This document shows, piece after piece, positions 2 through 9,004 of a stretch of DNA of 16,736 bases. Position 1 is the stretch's first letter, and each line of letters opens with the position of its first letter. This DNA is from Streptomyces sp. WM6386 (GTDB lineage Bacteria; Actinomycetota; Actinomycetes; Streptomycetales; Streptomycetaceae). The stretch covers positions 1-16,736 of the forward strand of contig NZ_JXTE01000120.1 in the NCBI RefSeq assembly GCF_000972385.1, written 5' to 3'. The translations under genes were made by a program, and so were the position numbers. The notes below the pieces were generated by a model. It worked only from the letters and a program-made list of their open reading frames with translations. It was not told where the DNA came from and searched no databases.

Positions 2-730
2 GTGAACGGGGCGGCCCGGACCGTGCGGTTCTCGGACGGCTCCGCGGTCGCCGCGCACAGCGTGATCCTGGCGACCGGTGTGTCGTACCGGCAGCTGGAG
101 GCGCCGGGCTGCACCGACCTGACCGGATGCGGGGTGTACTACGGCTCGGCGCTGACCGAGGCGTCCTCCTGCCAGGGGCAGGACATCTACATCGTGGGCG
201 GCGCCAACTCCGCGGGACAGGCGGCGATGTACCTGTCCCGGGGCGCCAAGTCGGTGACTCTGCTGGTGCGCGGCCCCGACCTGTCGGCGTCGATGTCGCA
301 CTACCTGATCCAGCAGATCGGCGAGGCTCCCAACATCTCGGTACGGGCGCGGACCGTCGTCGAGTCCGCCCATGGCTCCGACCATCTGGAGCAGCTCACC
401 CTGCGCGATGTGGACACCGGGGAGACCGAACTCGTCGACACGCAGTGGATGTTCGTGTTCATCGGCGCGGCCCCGCTGACCGGCTGGCTGGACGGCACGG
501 TACTGCGCGACGACCACGGGTTCATCCTGGCCGGGCCCGACCTCACCGCCGACGGGCGGCCGCCGGCGGACTGGGAGCTGGACCGGCCGCCGTACCACCT
601 GGAGACCAACGTCCCCGGCGTGTTCGTGGCGGGCGACGCGCGCGCCGAGTCCGCCAAGCGGGTCGCGTCCGCCGTCGGAGAGGGAGCCATGGCCGTGATG
701 CTCGTCCACCGGTATCTGGAGCAGTCATGA
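2..730 (+). CDS. Thioredoxin-reductase-like FAD/NAD(P)H oxidoreductase, C-terminal part (5' end outside window)
   Basis: This is the C-terminal 242 residues of a two-dinucleotide-domain flavoprotein; the reading frame is open to the window edge, so the GTG at position 2 is probably an internal valine. Visible parts are the end of an FAD domain (ILATG, 23-27), an NAD(P)H Rossmann motif (IVGGANSAGQAA, 64-75) and the C-terminal FAD motif (VPGVFVAGD, 204-212). In classical TrxB the redox CxxC sits just before the NAD(P)H motif. Here that stretch reads ALTEASSC, with one cysteine (C57) and no CxxC, so ordinary thioredoxin reduction is unlikely by this route. Its stop overlaps the next gene's ATG (ATGA), so it is co-translated with a sensor kinase. 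Relatives often carry an N-terminal cyclic-nucleotide-binding or receiver domain; whether this one does lies upstream. Family assignment is solid; substrate is unknown. Confidence 0.88.
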   Translation: MNGAARTVRFSDGSAVAAHSVILATGVSYRQLEAPGCTDLTGCGVYYGSALTEASSCQGQDIYIVGGANSAGQAAMYLSRGAKSVTLLVRGPDLSASMSHYLIQQIGEAPNISVRARTVVESAHGSDHLEQLTLRDVDTGETELVDTQWMFVFIGAAPLTGWLDGTVLRDDHGFILAGPDLTADGRPPADWELDRPPYHLETNVPGVFVAGDARAESAKRVASAVGEGAMAVMLVHRYLEQS

Positions 731-2184
731 GCGGGCAGTTGATTCCGTGCAGCCCCGAGGAGATCGGGTCGCTGTTCCTGTTCGAGAAGCTGCCCCCGGA
801 GCAGTTGGGGCAGTTGTGCAGCGCGGGGCGAGTGGAGAGGTTCGAACCCGGCCCCGTCTACACCGAGGGCGAGCCCGCCACCTGCTTCTACGTGATGATC
901 GAGGGCACGGTCGTGCTCTCGCGCCGGGTCGGCGGCGACGACGTCGAGGTCACCCGCACCTCCCAACAGGGCGTCTACGCGGGGTCGATGCAGGCGTATC
1001 TGGGCGACCGGGTACCGCAGGTCTACAACAACTCCATGCGGGTCACCGAGCCCACGCGGTTCTTCGTACTGCCGAGTCTGAAGTTCTCGGACTTCATGCA
1101 GGAGTGGTACCCGCTGGCGGTCCACCTGTTGGAGGGGCTCTTCTTCGGATCGAAGAGCACCCAGCGGGCCATCGGCCAGCGGGAACGGCTGCTGGCGCTC
1201 GGCTCGTTGTCCGCCGGTCTCACCCACGAGCTCAACAACCCGGCGGCCGCCGCCGTACGGGCCACCGCGACCCTGCGCGAGCGCGTGGGCAAGATGCGGC
1301 ACAAGCTCGCCGTCATCGCCCAGGGCAACTACGCCCCCGAGGTCATGGCGAACCTCATCGACATCCAGGACCGCACGGCCGAACGCGTCGCCAAGGCACC
1401 GACGTTGAGCCCGCTGGAGGCCTCGGACCGCGAGGACACGGTCACCGACTGGCTGGACGACCACGGCATCCAGAACGGCTGGCGGCTCGCCCCCACCTTC
1501 GTACAGGCCGGTCTCGACGTGGACTGGCTGGACCAGGTCGCCGCGGCCGTGGACGAGCAACTCCTGCCCAACGCGATCGGCTGGCTCAACTACACCGTCG
1601 AGACCGAGCTGTTGATGGACGAGATCAACGACTCCACCAACCGCATCTCCCACCTCGTCGACGCCGCCAAGCAGTACTCGCAGCTCGACCGGGCGCCGTT
1701 CCAGAACGCCGATGTGCACGAACTCCTGGACAGCACCCTGCTGATGCTGTCCGGCAAGATCGGACAGCGGATCAAGGTCGTCAAGGAGTACGACCGGACG
1801 CTCCCGAAGATCCCCGCGTACCCGGCGGAACTCAACCAGGTGTGGACCAATGTGATCGACAACGCGGTCGCCGCGATCAACAGTGCGGGCGGGGAAGGCA
1901 CCTTGACCGTGCGGACGGCGCTCGATCATGAGCGGCTGCTGGTGGAGTTCCGGGACACGGGGCCGGGGGTGCCGAAGGAGATCCGCAGCCGGATCTTCGA
2001 TCCGTTCTTCACCACGAAGCCGGTGGGCGAGGGGACGGGGCTCGGTCTCGACATCTCGTGGCGGATCGTGGTGAACAAGCATCACGGGACGCTTCAGGTG
2101 GAGTCCCGGCCGGGCGACACGCGGTTCCAGGTGCTGCTTCCGCTCACCGCCGCGGACAGTGACACGAGCGAGGAGTTGGAATGA
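727..2184 (+). CDS. Soluble histidine kinase with N-terminal cyclic-nucleotide-binding-like domain
   Basis: The product has 485 residues and no membrane segment, so it is a cytosolic sensor kinase. Residues 10-140 resemble a cyclic-nucleotide-binding (cupin-like) domain. The DHp H-box is at 161-172 (LSAGLTHELNNP), with H167 the likely phosphorylated histidine. The N-box is at 369-379 (NVIDNA, N375 and N379), the G1 box is DTGPGVP (410-416), the F-box is FDPFFTTK (424-431) and the G2 box is GEGTGLGL (434-441). About 90 residues (195-285) separate the two DHp helices, longer than in simple kinases. The usual cNMP phosphate-cassette Glu and Arg are not obvious, so the ligand may not be cAMP. The start is fixed by the ATGA overlap with the flavoprotein gene and a GGAG a few bases upstream. 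It overlaps the zinc finger gene the same way. No response regulator is present in the window. Kinase call is firm; the signal sensed is inferred to be redox-linked. Confidence 0.93.
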   Translation: MSGQLIPCSPEEIGSLFLFEKLPPEQLGQLCSAGRVERFEPGPVYTEGEPATCFYVMIEGTVVLSRRVGGDDVEVTRTSQQGVYAGSMQAYLGDRVPQVYNNSMRVTEPTRFFVLPSLKFSDFMQEWYPLAVHLLEGLFFGSKSTQRAIGQRERLLALGSLSAGLTHELNNPAAAAVRATATLRERVGKMRHKLAVIAQGNYAPEVMANLIDIQDRTAERVAKAPTLSPLEASDREDTVTDWLDDHGIQNGWRLAPTFVQAGLDVDWLDQVAAAVDEQLLPNAIGWLNYTVETELLMDEINDSTNRISHLVDAAKQYSQLDRAPFQNADVHELLDSTLLMLSGKIGQRIKVVKEYDRTLPKIPAYPAELNQVWTNVIDNAVAAINSAGGEGTLTVRTALDHERLLVEFRDTGPGVPKEIRSRIFDPFFTTKPVGEGTGLGLDISWRIVVNKHHGTLQVESRPGDTRFQVLLPLTAADSDTSEELE

Positions 2185-2534
2185 CCGAGATCCAGGGACT
2201 CGACGTCGACGTGCCGGCGAGCGGGAACGGGTGCGTCGAGTGCGATGCCGCGGGCGGGTGGTGGTTCCATCTGCGGCGGTGTGCGCAGTGCGGGCACGTG
2301 GGGTGCTGCGACTCCTCGCCCGCCAGGCACGCCACGGCACATTTCCAGGAGACCGGGCATCCGTTGGTGCAGAGCTTCGAGCCGGGTGAGGAGTGGTACT
2401 GGAACTTCTCGACCAAGGAGATGTTCGAGTCCGGTCCCTCGCTCGCGGCACCGGACAGTCATCCGGCGGATCAGCCCGCGCCGGGTCCGCAGGGACGGGT
2501 TCCGGCGGACTGGGCGAAGACCTTGCGTGCCTGA
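2181..2534 (+). CDS. Small UBP-type zinc finger protein
   Basis: The 117-residue protein has a UBP-type (ZnF-UBP) zinc finger over about residues 16-75 and a proline-rich, probably disordered tail. Candidate zinc ligands are C18, C21, C34, C37, C42 or C43, H50, H54 and H60, in the family order CVEC...RRCAQCGHVGCC...RHATAHF...GHPL. In eukaryotes this fold binds the C-terminal Gly-Gly of ubiquitin. The Arg of the eukaryotic CGR motif is not conserved here (CCDSS), and the late Cys seen after the Trp in many relatives is replaced (EWYWNF), so ubiquitin-like binding should not be assumed. ATG overlaps the kinase stop (ATGA) and AGGAG lies 6 bases upstream, so it is translated with the kinase and probably acts in the same pathway. 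The biochemical role of bacterial members is not established. Confidence 0.88.
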   Translation: MTEIQGLDVDVPASGNGCVECDAAGGWWFHLRRCAQCGHVGCCDSSPARHATAHFQETGHPLVQSFEPGEEWYWNFSTKEMFESGPSLAAPDSHPADQPAPGPQGRVPADWAKTLRA

Positions 2535-2575: not shown

Positions 2576-5465
2576 GTGCCTCCGACCTCCTTTTCCTCTC
2601 CGCTCATCGGCCGTGCCGACGAACTCGCCCGGCTCGACGGTGTGCTGTCGCGTGCCCGCGGTGGTGAAGCGCGTGCCGTACTGATCGCCGGGGACGCCGG
2701 AGTCGGCAAGACACGGCTCCTCGGCGAAGCCTCCGAGCGGGCCGCCCGTGCCGGGATGACGGTGCTCACCGGGCACTGTGTGGACCTCGGTGACGTCGGA
2801 CTGCCCTATCTGCCGTTCACCGAGATCCTGGGGATCCTCGCCTCCGACGAGCGGTACGCTCCCGTACTCTCGGGGCATCCGGTGGCCGGGCGGCTGCTGG
2901 GGGGCGAGGGCGACGGCGGACGGTTGCAGCTGTTCGAGGGCATGGCGGGGCTGCTGGCCGATCTGGCCGATGTCGCACCGCTGTTGCTCGTGCTGGAGGA
3001 TCTCCACTGGGCCGACCAGTCCTCGCGGGACCTGCTGAGGTTCCTGCTCAGCCGGGGCATCCTGCAACGGTCGGCGGGCGGAGCGCCCACCCATCGGCTG
3101 GCGGTCCTCGCGTCGTACCGGGCCGACGATCTGCATCGGCGTCATCCGCTGCGGCCGTTGCTCGCCGAGCTCGTACGGCTGCCCGCTGTGGAGCGGCTGG
3201 AACTGCGGCCGCTGGGCGACGCCGAGGTGACACGGCTCGTGCAGGCGCTGCAGGACCGGCCGTTGCCGGACGCCACGGTCCGGGGCATCGTGGCGCGGGC
3301 CGAGGGCAACGCCTTCTACGCCGAGGAACTGGTCGCGGCCACGGACACCGAGATGGGCGGGGTGCCCAGCGGGCTGGCCGACGTTCTGCTCATCCGCTTC
3401 GAGCAGCTCTCGGAGACCGCCCAGCAGGTGCTGCGTACCGCCGCCGTCGCCGGGCGCCGTGTCGAGCACACACTGCTGCGGGACGCCGTCCGGCTTCCCG
3501 AGGACGAGCTGGAGGCGGCGCTGCGGGAGGCCGTGGGGCGACAACTCCTGGTGCCCGGGGACGGAGACACGTACTCCTTCCGGCACGCACTGGCCCGGGA
3601 GGCCGTCTACGCCGATCTGCTCCCGGGTGAACGGGCCCGGCTGCACGGCGCGTTCGCCCGGTTGCTGTCCGGGCAGGGCCAGCGGGCCGAGTCCGCGGCG
3701 GAGCGGGCCCACCACTACCGCGAGAGTCATGACCTGGCCGAGGCCCTGACCGCGTCGCTGGAGGCGGCCGATCACGCCCAGCGGGTCGGGGCGCCGGCCG
3801 AGGAGCTGCGGCATCTGGAGGCGGCCCTCGATCTGTGGTCGGCGGTGGAGGCGTCCGTACGCCCTTCCGAGGACCGGATCACGCTCACGCTGCGGGCATC
3901 CGCCGCGGCCGCGCACGCCGGGGAGTCGCACCGCGCGGTCTCCCTCACCCGGGCCGCCCTCGCGGGCATCGACCAGGACGCCGACTCCGAACTCGCCGCC
4001 CGGGTCCGCTACACCCTCGCCGGGAACCTGATCAGCGTCGACAACCTGACCTCGGCGTTCGCGTACAGCAGCGAGGCGCTCGCCCTCATCCCGGCCGATC
4101 CCCCGTCGCGGACCTGGGTGTGGGCGGCGGCAACCCATGTCATGGCCGCCCGCCATGTCGGCGAGAACGAGATCGCGTTGCGGGTCGCACGCGAGGCCCT
4201 GCGCGTCGCCGAGCAACTGGGGGCGGCGGACGCCCGGGCCGATCTGCTCATCTCGCTCGCCTCCCTGGAAGGCAAAGGCCGGCGCACCCCGGAGGGGCGC
4301 GAAATCATCAGCCGGGCGCGGGAGTTGGCGCACGATGCCGGCAACGCGTCCGTGGAGCTGCGCGCGCTGTTCAATCTCGCCATCGGCAGCTACGAGTCCG
4401 GCGACCTGGAGGAGTCTCTCCCCTGGCTGGCCGAGGGCCTCGACCGGGCTCGTCGTGCCGGGCTGCTGTCCTCGCTGTATCCCCAGGCCATGCGCCATCT
4501 CCAGCTCCTGGTGCTCTACACGCTGGGCCGCTGGGACGAGGCCCTGCGGGCGGCGAACGGCTCCCGGATGCTGCCCGCGATCGACGGGTACGCAGCCGGG
4601 CCCGCGCTCTATCGTCGACCGGGCACGCGCCCTGCTCCAGGGCCACTTCGACTGGATGGCCACGCTCGTCGCGAGCATCGCACTGACCGAAGCGGCGGCG
4701 CTGCGCGGGGACGCCGAGGCCGCGGTGGAGCAGCTGCGCTCGTCGGTCAAGGCCCTCACGGACGACGCGGGCGCCCGTCCGGACGTCGCGGTCCGGCTCG
4801 CCGCCCTCGCGCTGTCCGCGGTCGCCGACACGACTGCCGGGCTGCGGCTGACCGGCGACGAGGCAGGCGCCGGACGCTGGGCGGCCACGGCGGACGAACT
4901 GGTGGAGCTGGCCCGCCACACGGCCGTGCGCGGCGAGGACGGCACTCCGCAGGGGCCGGAGGGCCAGGCGTGGCTGGCGCGTGCCGAGGCGGAATGGGTG
5001 CGGGCGGTGTCCGGGCCGGACGCGGCGGCCTGGGAGAAGGCCGTCGCCGCGTTCGACTTCGGCGACACCTACGAGCACGCCCGCTGCCAACTCCGGTACG
5101 CCGAAGCGCTGTTGGTGGCCGAGCGCCGTGAGGAGGCGGCCGTCGAGGCCGGTGCGGCGCGGGAGACGGCCGTACGGCTCGGGGCCACCCTCCTGCTGGA
5201 GGAGGCGGACACGCTGATACGCCGGGGCCGGCTGTCGGCGGCACCGAAGAACCCGGACGGTCCCTCGCCCCTGACCGCCCGCGAGCAGGACGTGCTGCGC
5301 CTCCTCGCTCTGGGCCGCAGCAACCGGCAGATCGGCGAGGAGTTGTTCATCAGCGGCAAGACGGCGAGTGTGCACGTCTCCAACATCCTGGCCAAGCTGG
5401 GCGCCGCGAGCCGTACCGAGGCGGTGGCCGTCGCCTATCGGGAAGGCCTGATCGCCCCGGAGTGA
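2576..5465 (+). pseudogene. LAL-type ATPase/LuxR transcriptional regulator, interrupted by a frame change near 4610
   Basis: Two frames together encode one large regulator of about 962 residues: 2576-4609 in one frame and 4611-5465 in the next. The N-terminal half has an AAA/STAND ATPase domain with Walker A GDAGVGKT (39-46) and Walker B LLLVLEDLHWAD (136-147). A long alpha-helical, TPR-like middle follows, and a LuxR HTH ends the protein (about 898-962, LTAREQDVLRLLALG onward). Dropping one base (T4610 in GCGCTCTATCGTC) joins GPAL directly to IVDRARALL, in character for the family. Past 4610 the first frame becomes an Arg/Gly/Pro-rich shadow without HTH, ending at 5131. The GTG at 2576 is the first possible start after an in-frame stop at 2561, with AGGA 7 bases upstream. 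Either the gene is inactivated or the base is a sequencing error; nothing suggests programmed shifting. LAL regulators usually activate metabolic or biosynthetic genes; no target is evident here. Confidence 0.82.
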
Positions 5466-6665: not shown

Positions 6666-9004
6666 CGGTCGAGGTCCTTGAGCGTCACGGACGCACCGGG
6701 CTTCAGTGCCACGGTCCGGGAGGTCCCGGCGTACGCGACCGTCGTGGTGCGGCCGCCGATGCTGCGGATGCGTGCCTCGGTCGGTTTCCCATCCCTCCAC
6801 CGTAGATCGACGACGAAACCGCCGCGCGCACCGGCCCCGGTGAGGGAGCCGGAGGCGGCCCACGCGTCCGGGAGGGCCGGGAGGAGTTCGAGGTGGCCCG
6901 GGCGCGAGTACAGCAGCATCTCGATCATCGCGGCCGGGGTGCCGAAGTTGCCGTCGATCTGGAAGATGCCCCGGCCCTGTTCCACCTCGTAGATGTCGAA
7001 GAGGTTGAAGGCGGTGCCGTTGCTGCCGTCGGTCGAGGGACGCAGGTTGGTGACGACCAGTTGGTAGGCGTTGTCCGCGTTCTTGAGCCGGGCCCAGCAC
7101 AGGCTCCGCCAGGCGTTCGCCCAGCCGAAGCTCTCCATTCCGCGCGCGGTGAGCAGGGCGGTGGCGCCTTCCACGAGGGCGGCGGGAGTGGAGCCGTCGG
7201 GTCGGATGCGGTCGCCGGGGAAGAGGCCGACGAGCGGGGACAGGTGCCGGTGGGTGGTCTCGCCGAGGTTGTCGGGGGACATCCACTCCTCCAGCCAGCC
7301 CGTGGTCGGGCTGACCTGCGGCAGATACAGCCGTTCACGGAGGCCGGCGACCCTGTCGGCGAAGCCGGTGTCCTTCTTCAACTCCGCGGCCGCGACGCAG
7401 TAGTTGCCGAAGAGCGTCCGGACGAGTTCCTGGGCGTAGGTGATGCCCTTGGCGTCGAGCGGCCCGTGCTCGGGCGACCAGTCGCTGTCCGCGACGAGCA
7501 CCTCCTCGGAGGTGCCCGGGAGGGTGATGGTGAGCAGTCGGGCCTCCCAGAACTCGCAGGCGCCCTTGAGCAGCGGGTAGATCTTCTCCAGATGGGAGCG
7601 GCGCGCGGTGAACTCGTAGTGCTCCCAGAGGGAGTTGCACAGCCAGGCGTTGCCTGCCGGATGCCACCACCAGCCCATCCCGCCATGGATGTTGGTGGAG
7701 ATGGCGACGGTCCAGCCGGCGATCTTTCCGGTCGAGTTGCGGTAGCGGTTGCGCGGGTCGTTGAAGCGGGTCCGGGTCAGTTCGGTCCAGGACGGGAGTT
7801 GGTCGACGCAGTAGTCGGTGAACGCGTCGAAGCACTCGGACAGTCCGGCCCGGTCGGCCATCCAGTAGTTCATCTGGAGGTTGATGTCGGTGTGGTAGTC
7901 GCCCATCCAGTCCGGGTCGTTGCCGTCGAGCCACAGCCCCTGGAGGTTGAGGGGCAGGCCGGCGCGTGAGCCAGCGATCATCAGATACCGGCCGAACTGC
8001 AGGTACTGGGCCTCCAGTTCGGGATCGGGCACGCCGTCCCGGGCGCGCGCCCTGATCCGTTCCCAGGTGTCGAGGGAGCGCTGCTCCTCGGATGATGTGC
8101 CGAGGGCGACGTCGAGCTGCCCGAACAGGGCACGGTGGTCGGCGACATGGGTGCGCAGCAGGGTGTCCGCCGTATGGCGGGTGGCGGCCCGGACCTTGGT
8201 GCGGGCCAGCTGCTCGGGGTGGAGGGACGGGTCCCGGTAGTGGGTGGCGGCGTCGGGTGCGTAGTTGGTGCCACCGCTGAGCACCACGGTGAGGTCCTTG
8301 CAGCGGGCGAAGGAGATGCCCGAGCCGCCGACGGTGACCGTGCCACCGGTGCCGTACGCCGTCACGGCGGCACCGTAGCGCAGGCCGTTGGCGAAGGCGG
8401 CCCCGAAGGACACCGAGCTCCCCTCGCTGTGCGTCCCCTCCAGCGCCACCGCGCCGGAGTACCGGCCGCCTCCGCTCTGGGAGAAGTGCAGGACGATCAC
8501 GTCGTCGGGCCGGCTGGCGAAGATCTGCCGCCGGTACGTCACTCCGGAGCGGACGTACGACGTGGTGATCACGCCTCGGGCGAGGTCGAGGGTGCGGCGG
8601 TAGCCGGAGACGGCGGACAGGTCGTGGTCGGGGATGTCGACGGCGAGCCGGGCGAGCAGGGTGAAGGAGCCGAAGTCCTCCCGGCCGTACGGGAATTGGC
8701 CGTCCGCGTCGAGCGTGTCGTTGAGGCCGCCGGTCCACATCGTGGCGTCGGTGACGAGAAGGAGTTCGCGGCCGGGGTCGTTGCTCGCGAGGGCGCCGAG
8801 ACGGCCGTTGCCGATGGGCAGACCCTGTTCGATCATCGAGTGCTCGTCGGCGGGGGCCTGCCACCGGAGCCGGTGGCGGGCGTCGGCGTCGAGGGCGGGC
8901 GAGTCGGCGGGTCTCCGCGGTGCCGCGGTCGCCGTGAACGGAGGCAGGGCGGCGAGCGCGGCGGTCAGCGCGAGGACGCCGCGTCTGGAGGGGGCGGGGG
9001 TCAT
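6662..9004 (-). CDS. GH95 alpha-L-fucosidase / alpha-L-galactosidase, Tat-exported
   Basis: At 780 residues this is full length for glycoside hydrolase family 95, inverting enzymes that remove alpha-1,2-linked L-fucose or the closely similar L-galactose. A twin-arginine signal (SRRGVLAL, 6-13) and AAP near 27-29 indicate Tat export. The N-terminal beta-domain has the family motif LPIGNGRLGA (62-71). In the (alpha/alpha)6 domain are DINLQMNYW (373-381), NIHGGMGWWWHPAGNAWL, SPEHGP, GWLEEW (569-574; E573 matches the general acid by pattern) and QIDGNFGTPAA (D684). In the Bifidobacterium enzyme AfcA the water-activating pair is N-x-N; here it reads D373-I-N375. ATG has AGGAG just upstream and lies 20 bp after the GH27 gene. 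Operon position between GH27 and an SGNH esterase supports work on a branched glycan. Family is certain; fucose versus L-galactose preference cannot be read from the sequence. Confidence 0.93.
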   Translation of the reverse strand: MTPAPSRRGVLALTAALAALPPFTATAAPRRPADSPALDADARHRLRWQAPADEHSMIEQGLPIGNGRLGALASNDPGRELLLVTDATMWTGGLNDTLDADGQFPYGREDFGSFTLLARLAVDIPDHDLSAVSGYRRTLDLARGVITTSYVRSGVTYRRQIFASRPDDVIVLHFSQSGGGRYSGAVALEGTHSEGSSVSFGAAFANGLRYGAAVTAYGTGGTVTVGGSGISFARCKDLTVVLSGGTNYAPDAATHYRDPSLHPEQLARTKVRAATRHTADTLLRTHVADHRALFGQLDVALGTSSEEQRSLDTWERIRARARDGVPDPELEAQYLQFGRYLMIAGSRAGLPLNLQGLWLDGNDPDWMGDYHTDINLQMNYWMADRAGLSECFDAFTDYCVDQLPSWTELTRTRFNDPRNRYRNSTGKIAGWTVAISTNIHGGMGWWWHPAGNAWLCNSLWEHYEFTARRSHLEKIYPLLKGACEFWEARLLTITLPGTSEEVLVADSDWSPEHGPLDAKGITYAQELVRTLFGNYCVAAAELKKDTGFADRVAGLRERLYLPQVSPTTGWLEEWMSPDNLGETTHRHLSPLVGLFPGDRIRPDGSTPAALVEGATALLTARGMESFGWANAWRSLCWARLKNADNAYQLVVTNLRPSTDGSNGTAFNLFDIYEVEQGRGIFQIDGNFGTPAAMIEMLLYSRPGHLELLPALPDAWAASGSLTGAGARGGFVVDLRWRDGKPTEARIRSIGGRTTTVAYAGTSRTVALKPGASVTLKDLDR

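Follow-up and report, generated by a model that had tools for sequence, protein, structure and literature searches.

A predicted kinase–flavoprotein two-component system, with an optional UBP zinc finger, in Streptomyces and other bacteria

The beginning of contig C25 of Streptomyces sp. WM6386 carries three genes on the plus strand in the order flavoprotein, kinase and UBP zinc finger (positions 2-2534). The window analysed here is the whole of this contig, 16,736 bases, from a genome assembly in 856 contigs. Sequence, linkage and structure models indicate that these genes probably encode a two-component system of the cytoplasm whose output is enzyme-like, the flavoprotein acting in place of gene switching. 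Most response regulators act on transcription. That the kinase pairs with a receiver domain of the flavoprotein is very likely. We somewhat favour the flavoprotein as the output, by means other than disulfide reduction, and we offer the zinc finger as an adaptor only tentatively.

The flavoprotein gene is incomplete in the window. Window bases 1-99 are identical to the last 99 bases of contig C40, the sole other exact match among the matches listed, and reading C40 into the window yields one protein of 558 residues, with residues 1-316 at L009:7323-8366. Two other members of the genus encode uninterrupted orthologues of 558 residues, 90 and 91% identical to it. The contig edge cuts the gene, and its real start is not at base 2. 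The original prediction, drawn from the window's letters, correctly recognized a reductase-like flavoprotein (Pyr_redox_2) but erred in starting it at base 2. The portion on C40 contains a receiver domain (Response_reg, 2.3e-15) that is complete, with the Asp, the acidic pair, the Thr/Ser and the Lys all present. Judged by its sequence, the response regulator that the kinase had been said to lack is the N-terminal part of the flavoprotein. Its apparent absence was an artefact of the contig edge, and we rejected an orphan kinase on finding the receiver fused to the flavoprotein.

The rest of the gene layout was as originally described: three same-strand genes joined by two ATGA junctions, on which coordinates, codon-position signal and Pfam domains agree. 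The flavoprotein stop (728-730) overlaps the kinase ATG at 727, and the kinase stop (2182-2184) overlaps the finger ATG at 2181. Third-position GC is 0.94 for the flavoprotein, 0.93 for the kinase and 0.85 for the finger, a strong codon-position signal, and Pfam assigns Pyr_redox_2 to the first gene, cNMP_binding and HATPase_c to the second and zf-UBP to the third. The features are as follows.

2..730, + strand: C-terminal 242 residues of a receiver, glutaredoxin-like and flavoprotein polypeptide (558 aa); remainder on the upstream contig
146..157, + strand: site of the thioredoxin reductase CxxC, here Ser-Ala-Leu-Thr, by alignment
727..2184, + strand: soluble histidine kinase, 485 aa, with a cyclic nucleotide-binding (CNB)-fold input, an HELNNP phospho-His helix and HATPase_c
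856..1101, + strand: CNB-fold domain (Pfam cNMP_binding), without the GE...PRxA cassette
1225..1227, + strand: predicted phospho-accepting His167, invariant in 19 aligned kinases
~1309-1596: extra DHp segment of the kinase, ~100 residues between the two helices, by alignment to 5IDJ; common to relatives
1825..2148, + strand: HATPase_c catalytic domain (Pfam)
2181..2534, + strand: UBP-type zinc finger protein, 117 aa, the finger itself at 2232-2426 (Pfam, model)

Kinase and receiver-flavoprotein are found side by side well beyond the window. In a sample of 149 genomes from the phylum, 17 carry the kinase (E <= 1e-30), and all 17 carry the flavoprotein as well. Across 18 fetched survey loci, the receiver-flavoprotein adjoins the kinase in 17, the exception being L044; within those 17, the flavoprotein of G135 is broken by stops and that of G028 is cut by a contig end. 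The stop-broken frame of G135 (L051) stands beside a shortened kinase and has probably decayed. Recruitment with flavoprotein motifs gave a wider sample, in which the best 80 named loci were kept and 79 counted (L167, with a split flavoprotein, was dropped), spanning Actinomycetota, Chloroflexota, Cyanobacteriota, Pseudomonadota, Gemmatimonadota, Bacteroidota, Acidobacteriota, Deinococcota, Myxococcota and others. Crude gene calling missed core genes; we based counts on stop-to-stop open reading frames (ORFs). A kinase lies within 300 bp of the flavoprotein in 61 of the 79 loci and somewhere in the locus in 69; where more than 2 kb was available on both sides (n = 62), the corresponding counts are 47 and 54. 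The quintet of receiver residues is intact in 84/85 flavoproteins with a kinase in the locus versus 10/18 without one (Fisher test, 1.5e-6), and the sole non-intact receiver among the 85 is a contig-end truncation.

Behind the receiver, the flavoprotein retains redox folds without their thiols. Its middle domain matches glutaredoxins by profile (2LQO, E 2.6e-10), with the CxxC aligned to SxxS, and its C-terminal module aligns with thioredoxin reductases, whose CATC corresponds to Ser-Ala-Leu-Thr in the window. Pfam, alignment and the model of a relative all place the FAD/NAD(P)H fold of thioredoxin reductase in this module. We compared 103 flavoproteins, taken from part of the fetched loci and scoring above set limits for receiver, middle and reductase parts. 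Neither position of the reductase CxxC is a Cys in any of the 103, the glutaredoxin-like CxxC has its first Cys in none and its second in 4, and all 103 retain a particular Arg of the NAD(P)H part. A separate check found C..C in the reductase CxxC stretch in 0 of 127 ORFs. Ordinary disulfide reduction by the flavoprotein is unlikely because neither active-site Cys occurs in these relatives, and thioredoxin reductase activity by a dithiol mechanism was excluded on the same two counts. That the protein is an ordinary thioredoxin reductase whose receiver merely tunes disulfide reduction is what its best-scoring family and the names of its relatives in the sources would suggest, but against this uniform lack of cysteines we regard it as very improbable.

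A ligand-free model of a relative from Acidimicrobiia (mean pLDDT 86.8, pTM 0.75) superposed on the flavin-reducing form of Lactococcus lactis thioredoxin reductase (5mh4) with TMt 0.95, versus 0.63 for the flavin-oxidising form (5mjk). In classical thioredoxin reductase it is the flavin-oxidising form that serves the dithiol. A flavoprotein handing electrons on by a non-dithiol route fits, since the model matches the flavin-reducing form better, and we infer from this model that electrons may leave by some route other than a dithiol.

The kinase partner combines HATPase_c (3.6e-23) with a weak HisKA match (0.0022, Pfam), and its His167 lies within HELNNP. Its cNMP-like input domain, as originally described, does have the CNB fold according to Pfam, but the standard cyclic-nucleotide pocket is absent here and present in some relatives. 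The GE...PRxA cassette is missing from the window kinase and its closest relatives; among 83 related kinases, one cassette pattern shows both E and R in 14, E only in 40 and neither in 29. That pattern had replaced a strict one, which undercounted; with a still looser pattern the cassette is found in 19/73 loci, ~3 of those 19 being doubtful by eye. Cyclic-nucleotide sensing was rejected for the window kinase, whose clade appears to have lost the cassette and so presumably answers to another signal; it was not rejected for some relatives. Inputs vary elsewhere in the family: in a scan of ten proteins, the same kinase core comes at some loci with PAS, with receiver-PAS-PAS or with an extra CoA-binding domain, an example of the last being the kinase at L137 7643-9484 with a C-terminal CoA-binding domain (PF13380, 1.5e-39). 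At three loci (L043 5853-10203, L157 and L183), three kinases of the family stand beside one receiver-flavoprotein, which suggests several inputs and one output.

Some loci also contain class III nucleotide cyclases (Pfam Guanylate_cyc). From 98 loci examined, 73 had a scorable CNB-kinase, and a cyclase ORF is present in 6/19 cassette loci versus 1/54 others (Fisher test, 9e-4; 3e-4 without the three doubtful rows). Cyclase genes lie near the pair at L125, L128, L130, L135, L170 and L049, and also at L042, L129 and L152, mostly with cassette-keeping kinases. In G114 the sole cyclase in 4.6 Mb adjoins the set; the window's genome has one class III cyclase. Some lineages probably take as input a cyclic nucleotide that the neighbouring cyclase makes.

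The main rival to a flavoprotein output would make the flavoprotein the sensor: the redox state of NAD(P)H and flavin would be relayed by the Cys-less domains and the receiver to control kinase or phosphatase activity, with the output elsewhere, in an unlinked regulator or the UBP finger. The loss of thiols with retention of FAD and NAD(P)H motifs is compatible with this, as are the three kinases beside one flavoprotein and the further kinases and receivers in some loci. Clustering of 763 flanking ORFs (>=80 residues) from 95 loci put mixed kinases and receivers in its largest cluster (11 loci); the second (7 loci) held cyclases and one LuxR-type protein linked through its ATPase part. The 11-locus cluster is, however, not one recurring regulator. 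The completeness of the receiver, and the correlation between an intact receiver and a kinase in the locus, fit a kinase target, and the varied input domains of the kinases (CNB, PAS and receiver-PAS) also argue against a flavoprotein sensor, which we therefore judge unlikely.

The third gene is a frequent companion within the genus. In a sample of 101 genomes, the kinase (E <= 1e-100) occurs in 47 and a UBP gene adjoins it in 44 of these, on the same strand in 43; one of the 44 is a broken gene (G023). In that one-contig genome, the UBP gene beside the kinase (L035, ~8339-8699) goes out of frame in mid-finger. The 4-base overlap of kinase and UBP genes is seen in 3/44 genus loci, judged by alignment ends: adjacency, not overlap, is conserved. 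The equimolar products once read into the overlaps do not follow, and translational coupling is suggested instead. Close UBP relatives (E <= 7.5e-46) lie in kinase genomes in 43/44 cases among the matches listed, a comparison that used 50 rows, the 48 strongest among the matches listed and two beside kinases.

Pairing with the finger extends through the phylum sample, where 39 UBP places (30 genomes) and 44 flavoprotein places (32 genomes) make 9 pairs within 6 kb against 0.12 expected at random; 44 of 45 flavoprotein places were used, the piece of the window's flavoprotein gene on C40 being dropped. Both occur together in 21 genomes (Fisher test, 4e-11, which ignores descent and genome size). 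Gene order is flavoprotein-kinase-UBP in the window's genus and kinase-flavoprotein-UBP in three Dyadobacter and a Chitinophaga. G092 has UBP-flavoprotein with no kinase, G093 has the kinase-flavoprotein pair with no UBP match, and G094 encodes a single CNB-kinase-UBP protein, the one fusion of this kind. Twice (G049 and G089; L104 and L110) the UBP gene stands beside a protein with CNB, glutaredoxin-like and reductase parts, which, from its domain order, would join input and output without a phosphorelay. Many UBP genes of the phylum sample have neither partner nearby. Some fingers are fused to Na+/H+ exchangers (L086, L102, L105 and L201, the last adjoining a kinase-flavoprotein pair) and others are divergent from them (L094, L107, L109 and, in the window's own genome, L010); an antiporter lies near the flavoprotein in 2 loci only, both with UBP. 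A UBP tree of 50 rows was poorly resolved: the flavoprotein-neighbour label has to change 12 times, at least 6 of these forced by supported branches, and gains are indistinguishable from losses. The finger is a recurrent, optional third part of the set.

That the trio is merely a positional cluster of genes with separate functions draws on the absence of UBP from most loci and on the unconserved overlaps. The adjacency of kinase and flavoprotein in many phyla, the excess of UBP-flavoprotein pairs over chance, the kinase-UBP fusion and the differing sides of the pair on which UBP lies in different groups leave it with almost no credit. Neighbourhood surveys of phylum, genus and named loci bore out the expectation that the set is conserved.

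The fold of the finger is clear (zf-UBP, Pfam 7.2e-14), and a model matches 2IDA (E 8.4e-10) as its closest structure, followed by USP49 and HDAC6. To our knowledge, no role is established and no ligand is known for bacterial UBP zinc fingers; Burroughs and colleagues may discuss them in their 2011 treble-clef survey. The original prediction noted that eukaryotic relatives read ubiquitin tails. One alternative would give that function to the bacterial finger, with a ubiquitin-like or Pup C-terminal tail as ligand and the set belonging to a bacterial pathway of tagging or degradation. The fold does match eukaryotic ZnF-UBP domains, including HDAC6-ubiquitin complexes, and the pocket Trp is invariant in 33/33 fingers. 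In none of the same 33 bacterial fingers, however, is there a basic residue at either of the two positions able to face the carboxylate-binding Arg, which we take to be the residue holding the ubiquitin carboxylate in HDAC6 and USP5; Ser/Asp-type residues stand there instead, and ubiquitin-tail reading was rejected on this ground. UBP domains also occur on antiporters, and no tagging gene was evident by eye in the neighbour clusters, from which ORFs of <80 residues were excluded, so that a Pup-sized gene would be missed. A tail-binding finger thus seems quite improbable, and from sequence the finger more probably binds some other ligand or simply contacts a protein.

In the two-component reading that we prefer, the kinase would sense an intracellular signal and then phosphorylate the fused receiver. 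The signal would be a cyclic nucleotide where the cassette is intact, sometimes supplied by a cyclase next door, and something else in the window's clade. Phosphorylation would alter electron uptake from NAD(P)H or transfer from flavin to an acceptor protein, making NAD(P)H/flavin chemistry or binding the output, and the UBP finger would dock the flavoprotein or the kinase onto a target and not read ubiquitin. Redox signalling with the finger as output or adaptor, as first proposed, is narrowed accordingly in one respect: the finger is optional and the flavoprotein is the more likely output. Redox signalling may still apply, although not of the classical thioredoxin kind, because the dithiols are lost. 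A broader conjecture, which we consider rather unlikely, is a widespread, unstudied class in which the partner of the kinase is an NAD(P)H-flavoprotein that has abandoned thiol chemistry in both of its redox folds, phosphorylation gates flavin electron transfer to a protein acceptor, a UBP adaptor picks the target (possibly a cation antiporter), an ancestral cyclic-nucleotide input, supplied in some lineages by a neighbouring cyclase, has been replaced in the window's clade, and the CNB-fused protein is a one-component form.

Several observations weigh against the proposed mechanism. No kinase is seen in 10/79 named loci (some of them short stretches), and the receivers are intact in all ten. 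All eight receivers that have degenerated come from a more distant group (40-45% identity), which confounds lineage with kinase absence, and the p values are too favourable because the sequences share descent. Cyclases had already been noticed when their association with the cassette was tested, making that test post hoc, and cyclases are common in the phylum (69/149 genomes, up to 22 per genome), such that some adjacency is chance. Some UBP gene is found in 96/101 genus genomes though the kinase is in only 47, and among named loci UBP was seen in 13/79 and not in 66. The structure model is of the Acidimicrobiia relative and lacks ligands, and a flavoprotein that has lost its CxxC might have only a structural or sensory role.

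On C40, a same-strand glyoxalase-like gene ends 93 bases before the flavoprotein start, and in Streptomyces fungicidicus the gene preceding the flavoprotein is on the opposite strand; both speak against the trio being the tail of an unrelated operon, an outcome the original prediction had allowed for. Streptomyces fungicidicus p1 has the trio in identical order with 4-base overlaps, annotated as FAD-dependent oxidoreductase, ATP-binding protein and UBP-type zinc finger domain-containing protein. Downstream in the window (2576-5465, + strand) lies a LuxR-type regulator gene (AAA_16), apparently frameshifted, with two parts in different frames that share one frame in two genus relatives (L034 and L035); it may carry a sequencing error or be a pseudogene. 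We rejected it as a fourth member of the set: it is present in two further genus genomes, but absent in S. fungicidicus. Ergothioneine-type genes lie near the set in four loci, three of one genus (L191, L196 and L199 in Dyadobacter; L130 in Chloroflexi), a weak association; Pfam confirmed one EgtD-like (PF10017) and one EgtB-like (FGE-sulfatase/DinB_2) protein, the other ergothioneine-type assignments coming from clustering. A part in anti-phage defence was rejected, as PADLOC gave no match for a close flavoprotein orthologue, the window kinase or the window finger.

A literature search that took in PMC5847659, PMC6599016 and PMC4506424 and covered subscription literature thinly turned up no paper on the three genes together, on the pairing with the kinase or on the missing cysteines. 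A two-component system with enzyme-like output is a known kind of system; the fusion of receiver and reductase is already in print, and the trio seemingly is not. If our reading holds, the output is apparently a flavoprotein that lacks the active-site cysteines expected of it, distributed over many phyla and with no characterised member in the searchable literature. Bacterial UBP fingers gain a concrete, repeated genetic partner. The name 'thioredoxin reductase' calls for caution, as it predicts an activity that the protein is unlikely to have.

Among known systems, the nearest in architecture are the REC-thioredoxin reductase response regulators, mentioned in a census as a 'Mycobacterium-like combination' (PMC5847659), which likewise fuse a receiver to a thioredoxin-reductase-like module; in its accessible part, that census mentions the fusion without a kinase partner, cysteine loss, a glutaredoxin-like domain or a UBP finger. 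Low-molecular-weight thioredoxin reductase and AhpF share the FAD and NAD(P)H folds, whereas the window's family is without the CxxC and has an N-terminal receiver and a Cys-less glutaredoxin-like domain. Records from Deinococcus aquaticus and Paraburkholderia aromaticivorans, named cyclic nucleotide-binding domain-containing thioredoxin-disulfide reductase, have the same glutaredoxin-like and reductase core (48-49% identity over ~73% of the query) but carry a CNB domain where the window's flavoprotein has its receiver, which makes them a one-component version of the circuit. The kinase shares DHp and HATPase_c domains with HisKA kinases (5IDJ the best solved match; 5IDM, CckA, the second), from which it differs by ~100 extra residues between the DHp helices and by its CNB-fold input. 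The finger has the fold and zinc-ligand pattern of ZnF-UBP domains (RPA1320, 2IDA, the nearest solved structure; HDAC6; USP5), and where eukaryotic ZnF-UBP domains have Cys-Gly-Arg, the bacterial fingers instead bear a CC(D/E/N) signature.

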